Positions 1,244 to 15,412 of a stretch of 64,000 nucleotides of DNA are shown here, piece by piece (the first letter of the stretch is position 1; every line of letters begins with the position of its first letter). The notes under the pieces were generated by a model that was not told the origin of the DNA, did not search any database, and saw only the letters and a list, made by a program, of their open reading frames with translations. The position numbers and the translations under genes were made by a program. The stretch lies in contig SVJD01000003.1 of assembly GCA_015069165.1 (NCBI GenBank), forward strand, positions 1 through 64,000, given 5' to 3'. Source of the stretch: Oscillospiraceae bacterium. GTDB lineage: Bacteria; Bacillota; Clostridia; UBA1212; UBA1255.

Positions 1244-1756
1244 TTACTCACCAATATCATTTAGTATCTCGCTGATTTGAGAGAACACACTCAGTGCATC
1301 ATCAAAGCTCTGCTGTTCGTCAGTATATAGCAATTCTTTGTGTAAGTTCTCATATGTCGAGCGAACCTGATCGTTGAGATAATGTTTCCAGACACCGAAA
1401 TTATAAGTACCTGTCGGATCGTATTCTTGGCTTATATTACGCTTTTCAAGGTAATAAGAGTCTGTCTGCTTGGTAATATCAATTAAGCGTTTGAGCTCGT
1501 CCTTGTCAGTTTCATCAATGCCCAAGAATGTCAAATCAATATCCTCGGAAAAACGTTCAATGGAACCGGGATAACATTTACTTAGTGATGTACCACCTTT
1601 GAACACGCATTTCTCTACATATTCGCTGTCTGCCAAGTTCTTCAAAAGCAAAACGATATAGTAATCACGCTCGATGGCAGACTCCGGCAAATGCTTATCT
1701 GCTGCAACTATGGATATTAAATCTCTAAACTCAGTTGTAAATTCGTGTAGCCTCAT
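1244..1756 (-). CDS. AbiEii/AbiGii-type nucleotidyltransferase toxin, short (170 aa), possibly internally deleted
   Basis: FKGGTSLSKCY...IERFSEDIDLTF nucleotidyltransferase motifs; much shorter than usual members; overlaps the antitoxin ORF. Confidence 0.8.
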   Translation of the reverse strand: MRLHEFTTEFRDLISIVAADKHLPESAIERDYYIVLLLKNLADSEYVEKCVFKGGTSLSKCYPGSIERFSEDIDLTFLGIDETDKDELKRLIDITKQTDSYYLEKRNISQEYDPTGTYNFGVWKHYLNDQVRSTYENLHKELLYTDEQQSFDDALSVFSQISEILNDIGE

Positions 1757-2438
1757 ACAGCTCCTCCATCATGGGATGTTTATATTCTGACAGGGATGAC
1801 AAATATTCGTTGAGATTATTATCTACATTGTAATAGTTCAAAATTTCCCTAAAAAAAGAAATGGTCGATTTCTTGTACTTTTTAGCAGAAACGATTTTCT
1901 CAAATGCACCGGCATTAAAAGATTCTGCCAACTGTTCCGTATATGCAAGAAATGCAGAATAGTTGATATCTTGTATCTCATTAAAGTTTTGCAAAACTTC
2001 TAATCCGTGAATCATACTTGTAATTTCTTTGGAGAATTCCAACGGCACCTGGTGAACAACAACGTTTCGAATTGACTTTGTTAATCCCTCAAGAGCAGAC
2101 GACATAACGGTTATATTTTTCGATATCTGTGTTGTTAAATTCAAAGCATTGTACAGTGAATAGCCGACTACCGTGCCTGATTCATTTTCGGTAAAGGCAG
2201 ATATGATTTCTTTTTCCGATGGCGGAACGATTCCGTACTTGTTCACCTTAGGCAAGTGATACGTACCTTTCGCAATTTTAACGAGTTCTCCCGATTCACA
2301 CAGTCTCTGAAGTGTTTTATAATACGCTGCCTCACCTATCTGTCCGGATAATTTTTCTCTATATAGTTTACTAGCAACAATCAACTCATTTTCTTTAAAC
2401 TCGGCAAGAGCATTTTTTACAATCGGATTGCTTTTCAT
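1731..2438 (-). CDS. AbiEi-like antitoxin (DUF6088-type)
   Basis: Winged-HTH-like N-terminus (LYREKLSGQIGEAAYYKTLQRLCESGELVKIAKGTYHLP) and position directly upstream of the AbiEii-like gene. Confidence 0.8.
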   Translation of the reverse strand: MKSNPIVKNALAEFKENELIVASKLYREKLSGQIGEAAYYKTLQRLCESGELVKIAKGTYHLPKVNKYGIVPPSEKEIISAFTENESGTVVGYSLYNALNLTTQISKNITVMSSALEGLTKSIRNVVVHQVPLEFSKEITSMIHGLEVLQNFNEIQDINYSAFLAYTEQLAESFNAGAFEKIVSAKKYKKSTISFFREILNYYNVDNNLNEYLSSLSEYKHPMMEELYEATRIYN

Positions 2439-2475
2439 TTGTTCCGCACCTCCCTTACAAAACTCCTTCGTTATT

Positions 2476-2504
2476 ATCTTATTAAAAGAACTTCATTTTG
2501 TCAA
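2476..2504 (-). promoter_or_regulatory. promoter of the AbiE-like operon (TTGACA-17-TAAGAT)
   Basis: Minus strand: TTGACA at 2504-2499, 17-nt spacer, TAAGAT at 2481-2476. Confidence 0.65.
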
Positions 2505-2526
2505 GTAAAATCAATTTTTACTTGAC
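2500..2526. promoter_or_regulatory. perfect inverted repeat GTCAAGTAAAA-tcaat-TTTTACTTGAC overlapping the -35, candidate AbiEi operator
   Basis: 11-bp perfect arms read directly; a further half-site ACTTGAC lies at 2571-2577. Confidence 0.65.
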
Positions 2527-2597
2527 AATAATTAATGATTACTTTGTTATAATACCCAAAACAAAACAAAACTTGACAATCTACGTATTTCTTTATC

Positions 2598-2697
2598 TAC
2601 AACAACGCAGAATGTGCACTTTACGCACATTATAAAACAGTTCACTTTTTTCACACTGCAAAAATTGCCCGTGTTAAAGCAAAATTAACTCAATCAA
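2598..2697 (+). repeat. imperfect direct repeat, left copy, flanking the ATPase gene
   Basis: TACAACAACGCAGAATGTGCACTTTACGCACATTATAAA... aligns to 4243-4340; contains the hairpin ATGTGC-actttac-GCACAT. Confidence 0.7.
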
Positions 2698-4097
2698 TAC
2701 ATATCCTCTAAGGCAATCAATTTCACTTCGCCTTTTTTCTCTAATGCCTTTAGACCTTCTGTAAATCCACCTTTAGAGAAAATATAATAATGATATGTTT
2801 TTCCTTTTCCAAATACAGCAGCATATTTTTTCAGTAGCTCGAATTCGTCTACACCGATTGCTTCGTTTCTAAATTTACATGAACCTATCAAATATTCATT
2901 TTTATTGTCAGTACTACCTACTAAATCAATCTGAACTTGCTTTTTTTCTACGGAATCTGTTCCCCACCATTGTCCGATATCTACTATTTGAAAACCAAGT
3001 TCGTCTGCATAATAAAGCAAATAATCACTACACATTTTTTCAAAAATCAGACCCATATAGTCATTTAGACATGCTTTCACTGCTTTATCATATATCTTTT
3101 CCATTCTACCTGATGCAATCGGTGTCATGTTATTAGGCACAAATCTATACCAAAATCTAAAGAATGGGTCTGCAATGCTATATATGGTTTTCTTTCCCGG
3201 CTTTTCAGTCATAGGTGTTTCCTTCTTCAGAATACCTAAATTGATAAGCACACTCAAATACTTCGAGCACGGTCCGGTTTCAATTCCGGTTTTAGTGCTA
3301 ATCTCATTCATATGAGAAGCACCTTCTGCTATTGCAGTAATTACGGAATTATATACGGCTGGTTCTCTAAGCTCCTGTTTCAACAAATTTGCCGGCTCTT
3401 CAAACAAATATGCCGATCGATCAAAGAAGTTTTCTAACAATGCATTATCAAAATCACCTTGTACATTCAGCTTATTAATATAGTGCGGGATTCCGCCTGT
3501 TACTCCATAAACAAATGCATTTGTTACATTATCCAATTCCGGATTAAAAACCGCTGTTTCTTTATATGTGAGAGGTTCTATCTTAAACTGCCCTGTTCTT
3601 CTTCCATAAAGCGGACTTTGATAACCGAGCACCTGATTTTCCATAAAACTCATAGACGAACCACATAAAATCAAAAACAACTTACTGTCTTTCCAAGTAT
3701 GGTCAATCAAATGTTGTATCCTTGAAGAAATAGATGGATATGACTTAGCTAAATATGGATATTCATCAATAACAAATACAATTCTCTCATTCTCTGCCAA
3801 TCGTGTAATTTCATTCAACGCACTATCAAACGAATTGTATTCAGGAGCGTCTGTCGCATCCGGTTGATTATACGTATAGATGGCTCTGGAAAGAGTCTTT
3901 AAGTTATCTTTTGCGGTTCCCTCCAAAAGAGCCGAAAAAAACACTGTAGGCTTACCTTTACAAAATTCATTTATTATTGTTGTCTTACCCACACGACGTC
4001 TTCCATAAATAACAATACATTCAAAATTCCCGGCGTCATATCTTTTATTTAATTTACGAAGCTCTTCATTTCTACAATAAAACATAATTCCCTCCAA
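2694..4097 (-). CDS. ATP-binding protein, archaeal-ATPase/DUF234 type
   Basis: YGRRRVGKTTIINEF Walker A, FVIDEYPYLA Walker B, CGSSMSFME; C-terminal DUF234-like nuclease-fold region (DLVGSTDNKNEYLIGSCKF). Confidence 0.85.
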   Translation of the reverse strand: MEGIMFYCRNEELRKLNKRYDAGNFECIVIYGRRRVGKTTIINEFCKGKPTVFFSALLEGTAKDNLKTLSRAIYTYNQPDATDAPEYNSFDSALNEITRLAENERIVFVIDEYPYLAKSYPSISSRIQHLIDHTWKDSKLFLILCGSSMSFMENQVLGYQSPLYGRRTGQFKIEPLTYKETAVFNPELDNVTNAFVYGVTGGIPHYINKLNVQGDFDNALLENFFDRSAYLFEEPANLLKQELREPAVYNSVITAIAEGASHMNEISTKTGIETGPCSKYLSVLINLGILKKETPMTEKPGKKTIYSIADPFFRFWYRFVPNNMTPIASGRMEKIYDKAVKACLNDYMGLIFEKMCSDYLLYYADELGFQIVDIGQWWGTDSVEKKQVQIDLVGSTDNKNEYLIGSCKFRNEAIGVDEFELLKKYAAVFGKGKTYHYYIFSKGGFTEGLKALEKKGEVKLIALEDMY

Positions 4098-4649: not shown

Positions 4650-5501
4650 CTATATTTTTTTCATCAACATTTGTATATCATCTTTTGATTTAGCAATTAT
4701 CAGTTGTGGAATATCCCAATTAAAGTAGTCTTGGTTTATTTTCTTTACAAATCGATCTTCAATTAAAAGTGATTTGTTTTTAAATTGTCGTGAAAACTCA
4801 CTATTTGAATAAACAGCTGTAATTCGAGGCGTCAACGGAATCCGTGCCATAAAAAACTCTTCTGTACTACAATTGTATCCTACTGGACAATCGCTAGTCA
4901 CAAAATTTCTTGATTTTGTGACAAAGAAAGAGAGATTCAAATTCAATAAATTACCTGTAATTTTTTTAGTTATCCCATCTTCAGTAGGAGACAAAAATAT
5001 TTTTTGCTGAGACAATTCTACAAGTGGCCGAATATTACCCAAATTCATTTCCCTTAACAAATTATCGATCTCTATTATTTCTTTATTTTGTAATAAATCT
5101 AAAGTTTCATCTTCGTCGATAAAACTATTGACTACAAAAAAATTCCTTGATATAAAATTAGCCACCATAGATGCCAATACTTCTTTTTCTTTTAAAGTAC
5201 ATATCAAAGCTGTTTTGTCTAAATTAATTAGACATTTATCTACAATACTACGCAAAACAGTACTGTATTCTCTTTCTATCATAGAAAACATTTTCTCAAT
5301 TTCATTTGGAAGTATAAATTTATTTTTTCCATGCGAAGCTTGCACTTCATATCCATAATCTTTAAAGCAAATGTCCTTAGGATGCGCAGAAAATTGTTTA
5401 CCATCGTTTTTTCTATAACAACATAGCATACCATTTTCACCTGCAAACTGTTTCAAGTAAAATTGCGGAACAAAATGCTGTTTTTTAGTGATGTTTATCA
5501 T
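4650..5501 (-). CDS. DUF4238-like protein
   Basis: N-terminal KKQHFVPQFYLKQFA, characteristic of DUF4238. Confidence 0.8.
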   Translation of the reverse strand: MINITKKQHFVPQFYLKQFAGENGMLCCYRKNDGKQFSAHPKDICFKDYGYEVQASHGKNKFILPNEIEKMFSMIEREYSTVLRSIVDKCLINLDKTALICTLKEKEVLASMVANFISRNFFVVNSFIDEDETLDLLQNKEIIEIDNLLREMNLGNIRPLVELSQQKIFLSPTEDGITKKITGNLLNLNLSFFVTKSRNFVTSDCPVGYNCSTEEFFMARIPLTPRITAVYSNSEFSRQFKNKSLLIEDRFVKKINQDYFNWDIPQLIIAKSKDDIQMLMKKI

Positions 5502-5578
5502 ATAATTGCATCACCCCCTTATACAAGCGTCACAACTTCAATGTTTTATCAACTGGTTGATATTTTAATGTATTTCAA

Positions 5579-6964
5579 TCATTTATTCTCTCGTTCACCA
5601 AAATATGCAGGAAGAAAAAGCTCTTCTACAACAAAAGAATGCTCAATAATAATATATTTCTCCCCATCCGATGTTTCTTCCTCTTCTATTTTAGTTTTGT
5701 AATTAGGATTAGTATTAAATTTACATTTTACACTATAACTATTTCCTTTCATATCTTGCAGAATTAACTGAATCGAATCAAGTGGTGCAATCAACGTTAT
5801 GTATGAGTTATTACGAATCTCAATTTGACATGTTTTTCCTTTTTCAATTAATTTTCCGGGGAAAGAATAAACATTATTATTCACATTCACACTACTGAAA
5901 ATAATATTTGTTTCAGATACGTTTTTTATTCCGAAAGAAGAAATTCGAACAGCATATGATTTATTATCTTTAAAATACTGTCTATCACTCAATTTATTGA
6001 AATCAAAATATTTTATAAATGGTATTTCTACATATTCATCATATAAAACTTCAGAGACTAATTTTATATATGGTACATTCTTTATCCGTTCTTCCTCTTT
6101 ACGTTCAGATTTAATACGTTTTAAATCCTCTTGTCGTTTATCATTTGAGTCTTTTATAGTCCATGCAACACCAGCAAGGGTAATTCCTCCACCAAGCAAA
6201 GCAGAATATACAGATACAAAAGCTTCAAAAGCTTTCCCTTTCAAACCGCACCAATTAATATAGTATGGAAATGTAATTGTAATAACTGAGCCCCAAAATA
6301 TAATGCCTATAATACTACTAACTATTTTTTCCGGTTTCTTAGGTTTATACACAAACTGATGTATATACAGTGCAATTGCAACTAAATAGGTAAGCCCAAA
6401 GCAGAATGCATAACACAAACTTGCAGGTTCAATGTTCCCAATACTCTCATTTAACGCCGAAAGTATAAAAGAAAGAACTGCAAGAGAAGTCAATACTACG
6501 GGAGTATTTTCTTGTCCAAATGATTTTTTAAAGAGTACTCTTATGCTCGCAAAAAGTTCAACAAATATAGTTATAAACAATGCTCGTCCTATAAAAAAAG
6601 CTTTAAATCCCCAAAGCTTATAGTCAAAAATTGCTAAAACATTGATTATTTCAGTAACAATCAACGGGGAAATATACAAAATATCATAATAATACTTTTT
6701 CTCATTTTTGCTTTTTTTTATAGAGTTGACAATAACTAATACATATAAAGCAACACCACATAGCATCGAACCACAAACCATTATTATTTTTAACCATGAC
6801 AAGTCAAAAAAAGCATTGGATATAGGAAGTGTTAAAGAATAAATACTAAACAAGAACAATGTAACAACAAATATTAGCTCCAAATACTTTTTATTTATCT
6901 TTTCCCAATGCTTCAACCGCCTTCCCATACAATGATTACGTTTCGACCAATCTTTATTAGGCAT
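5579..6964 (-). CDS. multi-TM membrane protein with a charged linker and a C-terminal beta-rich cytoplasmic domain
   Basis: Several hydrophobic N-terminal segments, then GGGITLAGVAWTIKDSNDKRQEDLKRIKSERKEEER and a beta-rich tail; 2-nt gap to the upstream DUF262 gene. Confidence 0.7.
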   Translation of the reverse strand: MPNKDWSKRNHCMGRRLKHWEKINKKYLELIFVVTLFLFSIYSLTLPISNAFFDLSWLKIIMVCGSMLCGVALYVLVIVNSIKKSKNEKKYYYDILYISPLIVTEIINVLAIFDYKLWGFKAFFIGRALFITIFVELFASIRVLFKKSFGQENTPVVLTSLAVLSFILSALNESIGNIEPASLCYAFCFGLTYLVAIALYIHQFVYKPKKPEKIVSSIIGIIFWGSVITITFPYYINWCGLKGKAFEAFVSVYSALLGGGITLAGVAWTIKDSNDKRQEDLKRIKSERKEEERIKNVPYIKLVSEVLYDEYVEIPFIKYFDFNKLSDRQYFKDNKSYAVRISSFGIKNVSETNIIFSSVNVNNNVYSFPGKLIEKGKTCQIEIRNNSYITLIAPLDSIQLILQDMKGNSYSVKCKFNTNPNYKTKIEEEETSDGEKYIIIEHSFVVEELFLPAYFGERENK

Positions 6965-6966
6965 AA

Positions 6967-8739
6967 TTACAACCTCATAAACGCTTTCTTAATAATCTGT
7001 GCCATCAAAACTCTTCTCTTGCTCAAAAATTCCAAATAATCCATTGATTCAAAATTTTCAGGCAAAGCGTGATTTTCACAATGAGTTTTAAACTCTTCTC
7101 CAAGTTTCTCTTTATATCTCTCAATATATTTTATTGGTGCATCATCCGAAATATCAATGTTTGTCACATAATCCAGATACGTAAAGTTCGCTGCTTGATT
7201 TCTGTCACGGTCAGAATTATATCCAATTTGTGACAAATAGTTTTTCGGAAAGATATGGTGCTTATCAATAGCATTTTTTGTTCCACTTGTCCCCGGCAAC
7301 AAATGTGTAGTTAAAGCACTGGTACTGAAAAGCATTGGATTATTAAGCACTATTTGAGAAGCGATATACCCATTCCAAACAGGCGAAATTGCCGAAGAAG
7401 TATTCAACTCATTAGGCAATGTCACATTAAAATAATCATCAGTAAATCTACCTGAAATAATTCTCTCCAGATAATCAATAAAATCATCAGCCGTATGTAT
7501 ACTTCTTAAATCCGCAAATTGTTTTTCTACCTCTGATTCCGTAGAACCTGTATAGAAATATGTAATAGCTGACATAAAAAACCATTTACTGATAATCTGA
7601 TTTAATCGAACAGAATCCACATTGTATTCTAACTTACCAATCAAATAAAGAACATAACTAAACACTACAGCATTTGAAGAAGCAACAATCTTGTTACTTA
7701 CATATCCAGCATTAGAAACACAGTTCAAAAATCCGTGCCAATTATTAAGATTCATTACATTTTCAAGCGCATTTTTGAATATTGTAAGATTTTGTGTTCT
7801 GGTTTCATCTGAATACTTACCTGTTTCCAAATTTTTACCACGCAGAAGCATATATGCATATCTAAGCCTTGCTCTGTGAAAACCGACACCAACGGCCATA
7901 CGAACTAAATGTTGTGGATCAATTTCCATAATATTGTTGTAAGATGTACCATCCTTCGGAATTCTTGACTCAAGACAAAACTCTGTTATTTTATCATGCA
8001 CATCCTTCTCATAGACAGCAATCAAAGTTTGAATAAAGTTATTCTCATTCAAATTCTGTCCACCGGAATTTACACGAACAAAAATATCTGCCACATCTTG
8101 TTCATCTGCATTTACAGAAATTTCTAAAGTAGGAAGTGAAAAATCTTCTAAACCGAGAAGATCATTAAGACTATCTTCAATCAAATCTTGTTCTTCGTCA
8201 GTCAATTCAGATTCACCTTTTTTTATTCTTGCATCATTCAAATCATTGATATATGCACGACGAAATTTTGTGAAAGAGTTGTTTTCCTTTGCCAAAAACA
8301 CATCACTAATTTTGGTTACCCATTCCTTATCACGGTCAATCGCAGTTGTCCAAACAGCAAATTCTCTGTTCAATGGATTATAACTAATTTTTATTTCTCT
8401 TTCAGAATAACTTTTATCTTTTACCTTGACTCCATACATCGCTGCAACAAGAGCTGTCAATCTCTGTTGACCATCAATAACTAATTCTTTAGGTTCTTCA
8501 TAAATTTTCTTATTACCGCCAATAGAATTTTTCTTCTCATCATAATCAGCCGGAGACTCCCACAACATCACATATCCAATAGGATAACCGCGAAGCATAG
8601 AATCAAAAAGATCTCTAACCTTATTATCTTGCCATACAAAAGGCCTCTGCAAGTCAGGTAAACCGATTTTTCCAATTCTAACATCGTCAACAAGATTCTT
8701 AACTTTACTTGGAATATTGGTAAATAACTCTTTTCCCAT
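6967..8739 (-). CDS. DUF262/DUF1524 (GmrSD-like) protein
   Basis: LPDLQRPFVWQDNKVRDLFDSMLRGYPIG and VIDGQQRLTAL (DUF262/ParB-like); C-terminal DKHHIFPKNYL (HNH/DUF1524-like). Confidence 0.88.
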   Translation of the reverse strand: MGKELFTNIPSKVKNLVDDVRIGKIGLPDLQRPFVWQDNKVRDLFDSMLRGYPIGYVMLWESPADYDEKKNSIGGNKKIYEEPKELVIDGQQRLTALVAAMYGVKVKDKSYSEREIKISYNPLNREFAVWTTAIDRDKEWVTKISDVFLAKENNSFTKFRRAYINDLNDARIKKGESELTDEEQDLIEDSLNDLLGLEDFSLPTLEISVNADEQDVADIFVRVNSGGQNLNENNFIQTLIAVYEKDVHDKITEFCLESRIPKDGTSYNNIMEIDPQHLVRMAVGVGFHRARLRYAYMLLRGKNLETGKYSDETRTQNLTIFKNALENVMNLNNWHGFLNCVSNAGYVSNKIVASSNAVVFSYVLYLIGKLEYNVDSVRLNQIISKWFFMSAITYFYTGSTESEVEKQFADLRSIHTADDFIDYLERIISGRFTDDYFNVTLPNELNTSSAISPVWNGYIASQIVLNNPMLFSTSALTTHLLPGTSGTKNAIDKHHIFPKNYLSQIGYNSDRDRNQAANFTYLDYVTNIDISDDAPIKYIERYKEKLGEEFKTHCENHALPENFESMDYLEFLSKRRVLMAQIIKKAFMRL

Positions 8740-8757
8740 AATGTATCCTTTCGCCCA

Positions 8758-11721
8758 TTATTTCCTATTAAGCTCTCTATAAAGCATACTTGCCAATGCA
8801 AACATAATCGCATTGTACTTGCTCTTGTTTTGGAACAAAGAAGTAAATGCTTCCGTTTGTTCCACATAACTGTCTTGTGCAACCTCATCAAAAATTTTCG
8901 GAAAAATACTTTCCACAAAAACTTGAGGATCAGAAGTTTGTGCAACTTTTTGTAATTTTTTATTTACTTTCAACTTATCATGCAGAGCATAGAGAAGAAC
9001 CCTGTCCGCGTCACTAAAATCACCTGCAAAAAGTTCATTTATTTTTTTGATTACTTCCTCTAAAGGTTCTTTTTGCTCTGGAACTGCCCTTCCTTTGCTT
9101 TCCGCAGGTTCATAAACACCTGACTGATTTTGCAAAACGATGTCGCCCTTAAATGTTTGTTTTAATTTATAAAACTCCAATTTCAAAGCACCTTCAAGAT
9201 CAATCATCTGCACTGTTTCAGGAGGTATTAACTTCAAAAGATACGAACAGAATACATATTCTTTTTGCATATCAGCATCAAACATACGGCATACCTGAGA
9301 AATATAGCCATACCACTTGATAAACGAACGAAGCTGTCTTCTGAAATTATATCGCTCATCTGGTGCCAAATTATTGTATCTGTCAGAAACAGGTTTTAAT
9401 GCAGATGTCATCTTACCCATCATTGTAGCATCTTGTTTTTTATCCGAATAATAAACATTGCAGAAAGATTCAATATCATTAAAAGAATAAATGTTATAAT
9501 CATGAATTTCTTTCTGTAGTTTATAAATCAAATCAACATTAACTTCTTGAGAAAGAGATGTTTCCTGATAGAAAGGTTGGAACGCTTCTCGTATATCATC
9601 TGCTGTATTTACAAAATCCAATATAAAAGTATCGTTCTTTCCTGTACAAATTCGATTTAATCTCGAAAGAGTTTGTACACACTTCACACCACGAAGTTTT
9701 TTATCAACAATCATTGTGTGAAGCAGAGGTTCATCAAACCCTGTCTGATATTTTTCCGCAACGATAAGTACATTAAAATTGTCATGAAACTCTCCCTTGG
9801 TTTGTTCTTCAGAAATATGAGAACCATCTTTACGAACATTCAGACTTGTCTCTGTATGTTCAGCCCCACCATCTTTAATAGAACCTGAGAACGCTACTAA
9901 AATATCAACATCATTATAACCTTTTTCTTCAATATATCTCTTCACCTCATGGTAATATCTAACGGCCGCCAAACGAGAAGAAGTAACGACCATCATCTTA
10001 CCTTTGCCACCTATCGCTTTTGAGGTAGTAGAACGGAATGTTTCAACAATAATCTGGGACTTCTGCGAAATATTATATGGGTGTAACTCTTCAAAACGAC
10101 GAATCACTTTTGCAGCACGAGAAGCCGGCACTTCTGGGTTATCCGGAATAGTCTTTGCAATCTTAAAACACGTATGATATGTCATATAATTTTGCAAAAC
10201 ATCCATTATAAACCCTTCTTCGATAGCCTGTTTCATAGAATACACATGAAATGGGTGAAAAGAACCATCTGCGTATTCTGTACCAAACATCTCCAAAGTT
10301 TGTCCTTTAGGTGTTGCTGTAAAGGCTAAGAAAGAAAGATTTTTATGTCTACCCTGTACAATCATTTCCTGTATAAGCCTATCAGTTTTATCAAATTCTT
10401 CTAACTTTCCTTCTATTTCAGCGTACTCTCTAAGAGCTTCTTCTGTATCAGCTAAAGCCGTTTTTAGTTTTATAGCAGATTTACCGGTTTGTGATGAATG
10501 TGCCTCATCAACAATAACAGCAAAACCCTTACCCTTCGTATCCTCAACTTCAGAGTAAATCACAGGGAATTTCTGCAATGTGGTAACAATGATTCTGCTA
10601 CCGTTATTGATAGCATCTCTAAGGTCTTTGGATGTCTTACCTTCGCCAATGGTTTCAACCGTACCAAGGGTATGGTCAAAGGAAGAAATGGTATCCTGCA
10701 ACTGTCTGTCAAGCACGGTACGGTCAGTAACGATGATTACAGATGAAAACACGGGTTTGTTATTCTCGTCATGAAGCGAAGCTAAACGATAAGACGTCCA
10801 TGCAATGGAGTTGGACTTGCCCGAGCCTGCACTATGCTGAATCAAGTAATTAATACCCGTTCCATGCTCGCGCACATCGGCAATGAGCTTGCGCACAACG
10901 TCGAGCTGATGAAAACGTGGAAAAATAAGTATCTTATTATCTTTGCAATGGATGAACTTTTGAATGATATCCAGAGCACTGTCCTTTTGCAGTACATTTT
11001 CCCACAGATATGCGGTGGGATAGCCGTTGGGGTTAGCAGGGTTGCCCTTGCCGCCGTCATTGCCTGCACCATTAGAGCCTTGGTTAAAGGGCAGGAAGTA
11101 TGTATCACCCTTTGCCAGCTTCGTGGTCATAAACACGTCGGTGTGGTCAACGCAGAAATAGGCAAGGATACGCTTATTAAACTGGAAGCAAAGTTCTCTC
11201 GGGTCACGGTCGTACATCCATTGTGTCTTGGCGTTGTCCACGTTCTGACCAGTGTACTGGTTTTTTAATTCCAGAGCAAAGACAGGAATACCGTTGAACA
11301 CAAGAATCATATCAACCGACTTTTTGTTGTCTGCCGAGTAATGCCACTGACGAACAACGTTACAAACGTTCTGCTCGTAAAGAGCGGAAGCGGTCTTGTT
11401 CAGGTGGGATTCCGGCTTGAAATAGCACACACGGAATGAAATGCCCCTGTGCTTGAAGCCGTGGCGCAGTACCGATATCAGACCGTTTGAGTCGCAGGCG
11501 TTGTTAAACGCGACGCAGAACTTTTTTACAGGGTCGCTCTGGCAGGTGTTCTCAAAGCGAGCCCACTCCCTCGGCTGAGTCGCCTTGATAAAACCTATAA
11601 AGGTATTGACGTAAAGCCCCACGCTCGGGTCGTATGTATCTGTTGTCTTTGTATAACCTCCTTGCTCGTTTAGTAAGAAGGACTCTATGTCCTCTTCAAA
11701 GCGTTTTTCGGTTGTAATCAT
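8758..11721 (-). CDS. hsdR: type I restriction endonuclease subunit R
   Basis: PD-ExK-like PVFALELKNQ, QHSAGSGKSNSIAW, VIVDEAHSS, FTATPKG; 987 aa. Confidence 0.95.
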   Translation of the reverse strand: MITTEKRFEEDIESFLLNEQGGYTKTTDTYDPSVGLYVNTFIGFIKATQPREWARFENTCQSDPVKKFCVAFNNACDSNGLISVLRHGFKHRGISFRVCYFKPESHLNKTASALYEQNVCNVVRQWHYSADNKKSVDMILVFNGIPVFALELKNQYTGQNVDNAKTQWMYDRDPRELCFQFNKRILAYFCVDHTDVFMTTKLAKGDTYFLPFNQGSNGAGNDGGKGNPANPNGYPTAYLWENVLQKDSALDIIQKFIHCKDNKILIFPRFHQLDVVRKLIADVREHGTGINYLIQHSAGSGKSNSIAWTSYRLASLHDENNKPVFSSVIIVTDRTVLDRQLQDTISSFDHTLGTVETIGEGKTSKDLRDAINNGSRIIVTTLQKFPVIYSEVEDTKGKGFAVIVDEAHSSQTGKSAIKLKTALADTEEALREYAEIEGKLEEFDKTDRLIQEMIVQGRHKNLSFLAFTATPKGQTLEMFGTEYADGSFHPFHVYSMKQAIEEGFIMDVLQNYMTYHTCFKIAKTIPDNPEVPASRAAKVIRRFEELHPYNISQKSQIIVETFRSTTSKAIGGKGKMMVVTSSRLAAVRYYHEVKRYIEEKGYNDVDILVAFSGSIKDGGAEHTETSLNVRKDGSHISEEQTKGEFHDNFNVLIVAEKYQTGFDEPLLHTMIVDKKLRGVKCVQTLSRLNRICTGKNDTFILDFVNTADDIREAFQPFYQETSLSQEVNVDLIYKLQKEIHDYNIYSFNDIESFCNVYYSDKKQDATMMGKMTSALKPVSDRYNNLAPDERYNFRRQLRSFIKWYGYISQVCRMFDADMQKEYVFCSYLLKLIPPETVQMIDLEGALKLEFYKLKQTFKGDIVLQNQSGVYEPAESKGRAVPEQKEPLEEVIKKINELFAGDFSDADRVLLYALHDKLKVNKKLQKVAQTSDPQVFVESIFPKIFDEVAQDSYVEQTEAFTSLFQNKSKYNAIMFALASMLYRELNRK

Positions 11722-13616
11722 TGGTCAACCTCCTTGATAATTGTGTGCTTGCCATAACCTTTTGGAACAATATTATTTTTTTTCATGCTTTCGATTGCTC
11801 GAAGCCAAACTTCTTTAGAGAATCGTTTCTTGCTATCATTCCAGTTAGTCAGCACCTCGACAACGATATCCTCATCAGTAAACTGTTTTTTATCAATGAT
11901 AAAATCATTCCATGCGCCATATAGCGTTGCAATTATTTCTGCTTTCTCAAGAGAATAGTTTTTAAAGACATCGATAATTCTTTCAATTTCCTCGTTGTAA
12001 TCGGAGAAATAACGCTCATAGTATTTCTTATACTTGCTCATATCTTTTTGAGGCTTGTAAGAAACACCGTAGCTTGAAGTATTGACATAAAACCATTTGT
12101 TAGCATGGCTGATAATCTTTTCACATTCATAGATAGAACTATCAAGAGGTCCAGCAGCTTCACGATGATACTCTGTGTCAAAGTCAAATCCAAGACTATA
12201 CTCAATGGTAAAAAGCATCTTTTCCAATTTGACACGCCCCATAAAACTTACATTGGAATCCAAAATCTTAGACATCAATATAGCTTGTGCAAAACGAGCC
12301 TTGTTTGTAGTAAGGACTGCTGGGAAATACGGATAAACGACAGTAACTGTTTGTTCTGACTCCGTAGTAATATCTTTCTTCCCTGTAACATATTCATAAA
12401 TCACGGACTTTTTGTAAGTTTCCATTTCAGCGAGAAGAGCAGTTTTCTTTTCAATCAATGCATCAATCTCAGAACATTTCTTTTCAAGATATTCTGTTAT
12501 CTCCATTTGTTCTTCCACGGAAGGAAGGGCAAACTTCAACAGTTTAAGTCCGTCCCAGTTTAAGCCTTGACGAACACCTGCACCCATTCCATAAAAACCT
12601 TTGCACAAATCAAAAGAATGTAAATAGTAGTATAAATACAGCGGTGTATTTGCACTCTGGTTTCTAAGTGTGAGATAAGCAGATGTCACAATTCCTCGCT
12701 CGTTAGCAAGTCCTACTCTCAAACTGGTCTGGTCGTTTTGTAAGTCAGTTAATCTGAGGACAATATCATCTTTCTCAATGATGTTGTAACTGTCAAAACT
12801 TTCAGGGAGTAGACCACCAACAGCATCTATGTTTCTTCTTTTAATCTTGCCATAACTAAGAGAAAGTAAGTTTTGCTCAACAAGACCTTCGTTTTTCTTC
12901 TTAACTTGTTTGAACATTTGGAATGCAACTTTAATATTCCAATCAGCAGGAATCTCGCCAATCCACTCAATACCTGAATCCTTCATAAGCCTATCACCAC
13001 GGATTCCTTTGGTGATTGCATCAACTACAATTGATTGTTTGAGTTTTGTATATTCTTCTATTGTCGCTTTAGTCTTTGCGATAACAGAGTCAATTTCAGC
13101 ACATACCTTAGTTAGGTATTTTGCTATTCTTGCTTGCTCTTCAAGTGTGGGTTCAGGAATAGAAATTCTTTTCATATCCTGCCAATTTGTAGTCCAAAGG
13201 TCATCTACAATACCGTGTCCCCATTTATAGAATTCATCAGAGAACATTGTGGAATGAAATAACCAGTCATAATATTCAGGGTTCATTTCATCCCTCGGAC
13301 ACATGATTGTGTTGATAAGTGATACTGAACCATCATAAGCGGATATTCCGCAAGAACCTCTTCTGTCAGAACGACTATTGATTGCGAAATCTCCTTTACA
13401 CACTAACTTTCTATCATCGTGAGCATCGGTTTTCGCTGCTGTTGCCAACTGAGGAACAATGCCTTTCATTGTAACAGATAGTGGTGGATATTCTGTATCA
13501 CTAACTTTTGTTTTTCGCTCTGTATATTGAGTACCGATTCGCACGATATTCCAATCAGCAGGAATCTCGCCAATCCACTCAATACCTGAATCTTTCATTT
13601 CTCTTGCCATAATCAA
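11718..13616 (-). CDS. hsdS: type I restriction specificity subunit S with about 200-aa C-terminal extension
   Basis: Two TRD halves each starting KDSGIEWIGEIPADWNI; 4-nt overlaps with hsdR and hsdM; extra C-terminal region after the second TRD. Confidence 0.93.
   Translation of the reverse strand: MIMAREMKDSGIEWIGEIPADWNIVRIGTQYTERKTKVSDTEYPPLSVTMKGIVPQLATAAKTDAHDDRKLVCKGDFAINSRSDRRGSCGISAYDGSVSLINTIMCPRDEMNPEYYDWLFHSTMFSDEFYKWGHGIVDDLWTTNWQDMKRISIPEPTLEEQARIAKYLTKVCAEIDSVIAKTKATIEEYTKLKQSIVVDAITKGIRGDRLMKDSGIEWIGEIPADWNIKVAFQMFKQVKKKNEGLVEQNLLSLSYGKIKRRNIDAVGGLLPESFDSYNIIEKDDIVLRLTDLQNDQTSLRVGLANERGIVTSAYLTLRNQSANTPLYLYYYLHSFDLCKGFYGMGAGVRQGLNWDGLKLLKFALPSVEEQMEITEYLEKKCSEIDALIEKKTALLAEMETYKKSVIYEYVTGKKDITTESEQTVTVVYPYFPAVLTTNKARFAQAILMSKILDSNVSFMGRVKLEKMLFTIEYSLGFDFDTEYHREAAGPLDSSIYECEKIISHANKWFYVNTSSYGVSYKPQKDMSKYKKYYERYFSDYNEEIERIIDVFKNYSLEKAEIIATLYGAWNDFIIDKKQFTDEDIVVEVLTNWNDSKKRFSKEVWLRAIESMKKNNIVPKGYGKHTIIKEVDQ
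12934..12986. repeat. 53-bp direct repeat inside hsdS (start of TRD2)
   Basis: ATATTCCAATCAGCAGGAATCTCGCCAATCCACTCAATACCTGAATCCTTCAT; one mismatch to 13546-13598. Confidence 0.9.
13546..13598. repeat. 53-bp direct repeat inside hsdS (start of TRD1)
   Basis: ATATTCCAATCAGCAGGAATCTCGCCAATCCACTCAATACCTGAATCTTTCAT; one mismatch to 12934-12986. Confidence 0.9.
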
Positions 13617-15361
13617 TCCCCCTTATGCAACAGTGTTTTAAGGGAAACCGCAATTTCATCTTCCAAACCAATAATTCTGGAAAGAATATCATCAGCAACT
13701 TCGGGTGTCTGATATTCATAGAAATATCTGGTCATCGGAATTTCGTATCCAACCTTGGTCTTAGTCTTATCAATCCAAGCATCAGGAGCATAAGGAAGAA
13801 TCTCGCGAGTAAAATAAGCATCAATATCTTCTTCAATCGGAACATTCTCTGTATCACGGAGAGAAGCATCTGCAACCTTCTTGCCCTTTTTCAAAACAGG
13901 TTTACCGTTTTCGTCAAGTAAAGGTTGTTCAATCACGATTTTGTTGTAACCGAATTCAACTGCATCAAAAATCTTAGATTCGCAGTAGATGCCGTTCTTA
14001 TCGCCAAAGATACCTTCGGTAAACTCACCGTATGCCTTTACGATAAGCTCACGGCAATAGTCAGTGATATCGTTTCTCTTTGTTCCGATGGATTTTCTGC
14101 GCGCCTCGTAGCAGTGGGAAGCATCAATAAGCTGAACTTTGCCTGCACGATAGCCGGGCTTGTCCTTGGAAAGCACCCAGATATATGTACTGATACCCGT
14201 GTTCATAAACTGGTCGGTGGAAAGCTGAATAATGGCATCAAGCCAGTCGTTTTCAAGAATATACTGACGAATGTTAGAAGGACCCGAGCCTGCGTCACCT
14301 GAGAACAAGGGAGAACCGTTCTGAATAATTGCCATTTTGCCATCATCAGCAAGTTTTGCCAGACCGTTAAGAACAAACAACTGCTGACCATCAGAAATCT
14401 TAGGAAGTCCTGGTGCAAAGCGACCTGCTTCACCGAGTTTCGCTTCTGCTTCAACTGCCTTTTGTTCTCTCTTCCAGTCAATGCCGAAAGGCGGGTTGGA
14501 GATGATACGGTCAAACTTGTATCCCTTAAACTGGTCTTCGGAAAGGGTATCACCGAATCGCATATTGTTAGGGTCGCCACCACGAATCATCATATCTGCC
14601 TTTGCGATAGCAAAAGTGGAAGGGTTGAATTCCTGACCGAAGCAAGTAACGGTTGCATCTTCATCAAGTGCATGGATTCTCTCTTCCATACAAGACAGCA
14701 TCTGAGAAGTTCCCATTGCCATATCGTAAACGGTAAAGTTCTGACCGTTGAAATTTGTATCAGACAGCAGAATGTCGGTCATCAGATAGATAATGTCTCT
14801 GGATGTGAAGTGTGCTCCTGCTTCTTCGCCATAGGATTCGTTGAATCTGCGAACAAGGTCTTCAAACACATAACCGCAGTCAACAGCAGAAACCTTATCT
14901 GCACCGAGGTATCCCTTAGGTGAATTGAATTCTTTAATTACAAGGTAGAGGGTGTTGCTCTCCACCATTCTTTTGATAATATTGTCAAAGTCAAACTTGG
15001 ACAGAACATCCTGAACATTGCCGGAGAAACCTGCAAGGTAGTCCTTGAAGTTTGCTTCAATGTTCTCAGGGTCTGCAAGCAGAGTTTCAAATGTGTATTT
15101 GGATGTGTTGTAGAACTGGTATCCAGATGCACGAGTCAGGAAACCGTCAACGACTTCCAGATTCTTGACCTTCTCATAGGTTTCCAGAACCTTACTATGG
15201 GTCGGAAGCAGACAGTCGTGGAATCTCTTAACTACAGTCATCGGAAGGATGACCAGACCGTATTCGTGGGGTTTGAAAGGTCCGGCAAGGTGATTCGCCA
15301 CATTCCAAATGACGGTTGACTTCTCTGATATATTGGTACCAACATTAGTAATTGCACTCAT
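13613..15361 (-). CDS. hsdM: type I restriction-modification DNA methylase subunit M
   Basis: AGAHFTSRDIIYLM, VYDMAMGTSQML, FDRIISNPPFGIDW (NPPF motif); likely start MSAITNVGTNISEKS inside the longer ORF 13613-15394. Confidence 0.95.
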   Translation of the reverse strand: MSAITNVGTNISEKSTVIWNVANHLAGPFKPHEYGLVILPMTVVKRFHDCLLPTHSKVLETYEKVKNLEVVDGFLTRASGYQFYNTSKYTFETLLADPENIEANFKDYLAGFSGNVQDVLSKFDFDNIIKRMVESNTLYLVIKEFNSPKGYLGADKVSAVDCGYVFEDLVRRFNESYGEEAGAHFTSRDIIYLMTDILLSDTNFNGQNFTVYDMAMGTSQMLSCMEERIHALDEDATVTCFGQEFNPSTFAIAKADMMIRGGDPNNMRFGDTLSEDQFKGYKFDRIISNPPFGIDWKREQKAVEAEAKLGEAGRFAPGLPKISDGQQLFVLNGLAKLADDGKMAIIQNGSPLFSGDAGSGPSNIRQYILENDWLDAIIQLSTDQFMNTGISTYIWVLSKDKPGYRAGKVQLIDASHCYEARRKSIGTKRNDITDYCRELIVKAYGEFTEGIFGDKNGIYCESKIFDAVEFGYNKIVIEQPLLDENGKPVLKKGKKVADASLRDTENVPIEEDIDAYFTREILPYAPDAWIDKTKTKVGYEIPMTRYFYEYQTPEVADDILSRIIGLEDEIAVSLKTLLHKGD

Positions 15362-15412
15362 AATTAATGTTTCCCGCTTTCCTGTATTATGCATCGTGTT
15401 ATGTAAATCAGT

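Follow-up and report, generated by a model that had tools for sequence, protein, structure and literature searches.

A six-gene operon on the minus strand of the window, between positions 4650 and 15394, is probably a type I restriction–modification (RM) operon whose HsdR belongs to a widespread family and which serves as a landing platform for further, independent defence cargo, here a GmrSD-type nuclease, a DUF4238 protein and a transmembrane (TM) accessory. The window is the whole stretch of 64,000 nucleotides that was analysed, at positions 1 to 64,000 of contig SVJD01000003.1 of an Oscillospiraceae bacterium (GCA_015069165.1). The gene content, the gene order and the motifs were directly established, together with the recurrence of hsdMSR-DUF262 without the remaining genes. 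The GC content of the genes is 0.435 in hsdM, 0.372 in hsdS, 0.398 in hsdR, 0.335 in the DUF262 gene, 0.298 in the TM gene and 0.292 in the DUF4238 gene. This fall from 0.435 to 0.292 along the operon is more readily explained by separate acquisition of the genes, step by step, than by joint evolution of all six as one machine. The only unusual parts of the operon are the near-orphan membrane protein and a tail on HsdS. The analysis flags two unstudied parts, namely a rare RM-linked membrane protein family with a C-terminal module that recurs in prophages, and the tail, tentatively Panacea-like, of a type I specificity subunit.

In the proposed mechanism, HsdM and HsdS would modify a bipartite host site by adenine methylation, and invading DNA without this mark would be cut by HsdMSR. 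The DUF262/His-Me protein would be a GmrSD-type (type IV-like), NTP-dependent nuclease, which most likely cuts modified-base DNA that escapes the type I enzyme; this specificity of the DUF262 clade is borrowed from distant relatives. The DUF4238 protein would act as an independent single-gene anti-phage protein, and the 461-aa protein would be the product of a membrane-anchored accessory cargo gene. The substrates, as well as the function given to the TM protein, are predicted ones.

Gene organization of the operon

The original prediction described six minus-strand genes with short overlaps and gaps, and all of these were borne out by the ORF positions in the window. The hsdM gene was correctly recognised, but its ORF extends upstream to 15394; the ATG at the proposed start, 15361, lies inside this ORF, 33 nt further on, and is an alternative start. 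HsdM (13613..15394, minus strand, 593 aa), a type I N6-adenine methyltransferase, matches the Pfam families N6_Mtase (4.2e-52) and HsdM_N (3e-19) and has an NPPF motif. The specificity subunit HsdS (11718..13616, minus strand, 632 aa; Methylase_S, 3.9e-11; PADLOC Specificity_I, 2.6e-98) consists of two target-recognition halves and an additional C-terminal domain of ~200 aa. In the restriction/translocation subunit HsdR (8758..11721, minus strand, 987 aa; SWI2_SNF2, 2.2e-23; T1R_D3-like, 5.1e-12; HSDR_N, 2e-8), the ExK, Walker A and DEAH motifs are all intact. The three subunits of a type I RM system are therefore present together with intact motifs. The hsdM/hsdS and hsdS/hsdR pairs each overlap by 4 nt, and the following gaps are 18 nt between hsdR and the DUF262 gene, 2 nt between the DUF262 and TM genes, and 77 nt between the TM and DUF4238 genes.

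In promoter and terminator scans, which perform at or near chance level, no terminator-like site was found on the operon strand in any intergenic gap, and the nearest one is located at 4275-4257, beyond the DUF4238 gene. The operon is presumably co-transcribed. The contig is 87 kb long and the window starts at its first base; the assembly, of 1.9 Mb, is fragmented. Downstream of the operon, at 1244-4097 on the minus strand, there are AbiEi/AbiEii-like genes and a gene for an ATPase with DUF234, which matches the PADLOC candidate PDC-S27; the AbiEii-like product has only 170 aa and is perhaps truncated. These neighbours indicate that the operon sits in a defence island.

GmrSD-type protein and its coupling to type I RM

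The protein encoded at 6967..8739 (minus strand, 590 aa) had been labelled DUF262/DUF1524. The DUF262 part of the label holds, as the protein matches GmrSD_N (3.4e-32) and PADLOC HEC-05 (1.3e-34) and has the QR, DGQQR and FxxxN motifs of the GmrSD N-terminal domain; its only match in the PDB sequence search is 7p9k, a DUF262 protein. The DUF1524 part requires correction, because Pfam GmrSD_C does not match at an E-value of 0.1, and the putative nuclease part is recognised instead from a His-Me-finger motif, HHIFPK...N...N. As for conservation, PDLQRPFVW, DGQQR, FVRVN, HHIFPK and the residues N514, N518 and N527 are invariant in 35/35 relatives.

A scan of ~85,000 species genomes gave 39 relatives of this protein, mostly 56–88% identical in their best segments, 38 of which have a recognisable DUF262 ORF. 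Type I RM subunits were found within five genes in 14 of the 38 loci, which is a lower bound, many of the contigs being short. An automated HMM count had given 17 of 38, with adjoining subunits in 13, and three of the 17 were discounted on our own reading. Rejected as type I HsdR matches were a type III Mod-Res pair (L034), a DEAD/PLD helicase (L052) and a match judged similar to the latter (L024). At L034 and L049, a DUF262 gene of the same clade comes after type III Mod-Res genes, which indicates that the partnership of this clade is not limited to type I RM.

The closest parallels in gene order are L042 and L043, where hsdM-hsdS-hsdR is followed after 24 nt by the DUF262 gene, as in the window, and the next genes are all on the opposite strand. 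Their products are 60–61% (HsdM), 58% (HsdR) and 60–61% (DUF262) identical to those of the window. GmrSD genes embedded in type I operons recur at L042, L043, L050, L053, L055, L026, L019/L033 and other loci. In a genome of the same genus (G004), a 66%-identical DUF262 gene has a Fic gene on one side and a different hsdR on the other, and neither the TM protein nor DUF4238 adjoins it. The proposed coupling of a type I RM to a GmrSD-like protein is thus real and recurrent, and it has already been published. Judged by gene order and sequence similarity, hsdMSR with DUF262 is a recurrent module, and the window adds one more example to those already known.

Among the defence genes that adjoin GmrSD, those of type I RM are the commonest, and RloF has been pointed to in this context (Machnicka et al., PMC4619093). 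The layering of a type I RM with a type IV-like enzyme is supported here and is an already known pattern. TgvAB, which acts on modified phages and whose anti-phage activity does not need HsdR cutting (PMC11411939), resembles the window in that a type I RM operon contains genes of the GmrSD family, with both the DGQQR and the His-Me motifs. However, TgvAB consists of two proteins encoded between the RM genes, whereas the window has one fused protein after hsdR, in addition to the TM and DUF4238 proteins. RloF (R-linked ORF F) of the Campylobacter jejuni type I loci, as described in the accounts that cite it (Miller 2005, cited in PMC4619093 and PMC11411939), is likewise a DUF262 gene linked to hsdR/hsdS; by these accounts it is located between hsdS and hsdR, unlike the DUF262 gene of the window, and the likeness is drawn from these descriptions. 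BrxU and the PADLOC systems HEC-05 and HEC-06 share with the window a single DUF262 + His-Me protein, HEC-05 being the best PADLOC match, but they are embedded in BREX or Hma clusters and not in type I RM, and the alignment covers mostly the N-terminal domain.

DUF4238 protein and other cargo of the HsdR family

HsdR relatives were surveyed in 16 other genomes and several plasmids, and the attached genes differ, or nothing obvious is attached. The cargo includes DUF262 genes of other clades (L107, L109, L111, L115 and L119), DUF4238 (L081), RhuM (L118) and Fic-like genes (L116 and L117). The survey adds further evidence for one HsdR family as a platform of rotating cargo, comprising GmrSD, DUF4238, RhuM, an ATPase/HNH pair, ADP-ribosylglycohydrolase and Fic.

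The ATPase/HNH pair was observed in a related RM system on the Ketogulonicigenium plasmid pYP1 (L139:4039-5983), where genes for an AAA ATPase and for a 'retron system putative HNH endonuclease' separate hsdS from hsdR. The ADP-ribosylglycohydrolase genes come after hsdR in related operons of type I (L105:10791-11666 and L107:11669-12580).

The last gene of the operon (4650..5501, minus strand, 283 aa) encodes a DUF4238 protein, which matches PF14022 (2e-29) with 103.3 bits against a curated cut-off of 27. The family is above its cut-off in 8 of 245 class-level genomes, the genome of the window among them. DUF4238 was shown by experiment to be a single-gene defence against T7 (Rousset et al. 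2022, PMC9122126). That system belongs to the same Pfam family above the curated cut-off, and the window protein would by analogy be an anti-phage protein, resistance alone being known from another member. The published DUF4238 is a stand-alone gene in P2-like phage hotspots, whereas that of the window closes an RM operon. At L081 (G115), a DUF4238 relative is located between hsdS and hsdR of the nearest homologue of the RM system (HsdM 80% and HsdR 67% identical), and this operon has no TM protein. Its position inside the L081 operon indicates that DUF4238 associates with this RM family independently, as DUF262 does.

The TM and DUF4238 genes might instead have been acquired as one separate block downstream of a complete hsdMSR-DUF262 operon, with no functional tie except read-through transcription. 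Their base composition (GC 0.29–0.30, GC3 0.22–0.24) differs from that of the upstream genes (GC 0.34–0.43), a 77-nt leader precedes the DUF4238 gene, DUF4238 works alone elsewhere (PMC9122126), and the L042 and L043 operons end after DUF262. However, L081 has DUF4238 without a TM protein, and a viral-collection locus, L064, has a TM relative without an adjoining DUF4238. The two genes therefore seem to be drawn to the platform separately, which makes their arrival as a block unlikely and agrees with the reading of the operon as a platform for independent cargo.

Membrane protein

The TM protein (5579..6964, minus strand, 461 aa) has ~7-9 hydrophobic helices, a GGxxTLxGVxWTI motif, a basic linker and a beta-rich tail, as judged from hydropathy and motifs, and matches no Pfam or PADLOC family above cut-off. 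Searches with the single sequence in two genome draws (146 and 391 genomes), with profiles in 245 and 150 genomes and with the L064 relative as a query in 140 genomes gave no convincing relative; these draws overlap one another. Likewise, tblastn against plasmids and phages and pattern scans of genome and viral contigs gave no relative beyond L064. Single-sequence HMMER misses the similarity between the TM protein and L064, which means that other distant relatives could have escaped detection. A match in G241 was rejected as lying inside an FAD-dependent oxidoreductase-like ORF, and matches in G498, G474 and G445 were rejected as short, marginal and mostly stop-interrupted.

The sole distant relative is encoded at L064:17-1237 on a viral-collection contig (406 aa, same topology) and is 27% identical over 171 aa, with a pairwise E-value of 2e-8. 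Its stop overlaps the start of hsdR by 4 nt, and hsdR is followed after 14 nt by the DUF262 gene. The L064 HsdR is 48% identical to that of the window, and the DUF262 gene product is a 603-aa GmrSD_N protein. This locus was retrieved via its DUF262 gene and hence does not provide an unbiased count of neighbours.

The original prediction paired the DUF262 and TM proteins as a sensor/nuclease and a membrane effector, which would act as a back-up once the RM is breached. In the form considered here, blocking of the type I system would also be a trigger, much as PrrC guards EcoPrrI. A conserved pair was not observed, as the TM protein is absent beside all 38 close DUF262 relatives (0/38) and complete hsdMSR-DUF262 operons, such as L042 and L043, exist without it; what stands is the single distant case of L064, in which hsdR separates the two genes. 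By sequence similarity, the association is one of two operons, not of a conserved pair. The DUF262 protein also has a nuclease motif of its own and does not depend on an effector in the membrane. The 2-nt spacing of the DUF262 and TM genes, and the presence at L064 of the same three partners in another order, count in favour of the back-up model and against the platform reading; they give a hint of more than random cargo. That an effector can guard an RM system is known from PrrC (PMC12707154), and EcoPrrI and the window both have an accessory effector gene tied to a type I RM operon. However, PrrC is an anticodon nuclease, the window contains no such gene, and the parallel is conceptual only. 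The sensor–effector model is thus a thinly supported conjecture based on two operons, and we consider it quite unlikely. Should the membrane protein indeed respond when the RM system is inhibited, it would represent a novel type of RM guard.

A membrane gene that merely hitch-hikes, unrelated to defence, would agree with the lack of a known family and with the low confidence of the structure model (mean pLDDT 46.5 from 8 aligned sequences). This explanation appears very unlikely, considering that the L064 relative sits inside an RM operon and that the GGxxTLxGVxWTI motif, the basic linker and the beta tail recur in prophage-type proteins beside a repressor or near an Abi-type protein. From these sequence features, the TM protein is best read as a composite, with several helices in its N-terminal region and, in its C-terminal half, a module that resembles one of prophage accessory genes. 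As part of the platform's cargo, it is most likely a membrane-anchored accessory with an anti-phage or phage-exclusion role and not an obligate partner of DUF262.

The proteins with this module were observed on the viral contigs L123-L130. They have one or two TM helices, the GGxxTLxGVxWTI motif and a basic linker, to which most of them add a beta-like tail, and match no named family; one is encoded beside a phage repressor and another near an Abi-type gene. Membrane genes adjoining DUF262 at L022, L027 and L037 are unrelated to the TM protein, those of L027 and L037 resembling ordinary transporters. A further membrane protein, of 497 aa (L054:7203-8693), without a Pfam match and also unrelated, comes from a type I operon whose last gene is a DUF262 relative; the gene for this protein separates hsdM from hsdS.

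C-terminal tail of HsdS

The C-terminal extension of HsdS (residues ~425-632; 11721-12344, minus strand) is distantly like YwgA/SocA/Panacea-type proteins. This tail of ~200 aa is missing from every intact related HsdS seen (~374-478 aa), and aligns with the C-termini of other long PADLOC HsdS/HsdM models. It matches a Tunicatimonas plasmid protein (1e-18), and a profile of two tail sequences reaches a YwgA-like protein (1.6e-7), which in turn scores 19.5 bits against SocA_Panacea, below the cut-off of 25.7. The tail itself does not match PF13274 even at an E-value of 10, nor was a Panacea match found in the PDB sequence search; a single-sequence structure model was unusable (pLDDT 36.8). 'Panacea-like' is therefore a lead from remote similarity and not a statement of membership.

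Toxins that act on membranes are among those that Panacea antitoxins can neutralise (PMC8832971). On this basis, the HsdS tail could silence the 461-aa protein as a membrane toxin while the RM complex is intact, and inhibition of the complex by a phage would free the toxin, so that the specificity subunit would double as an antitoxin and the operon would be a self-guarding RM. We regard this reading as highly improbable, and the reading of the operon as a platform for independent cargo is retained.

A further feature of hsdS is a 53-nt direct repeat, 98% identical, at 12934-12986 and 13546-13598. The two copies are 612 nt apart at the starts of the hsdS halves, and the repeat is a possible site for recombination between the target-recognition domains.
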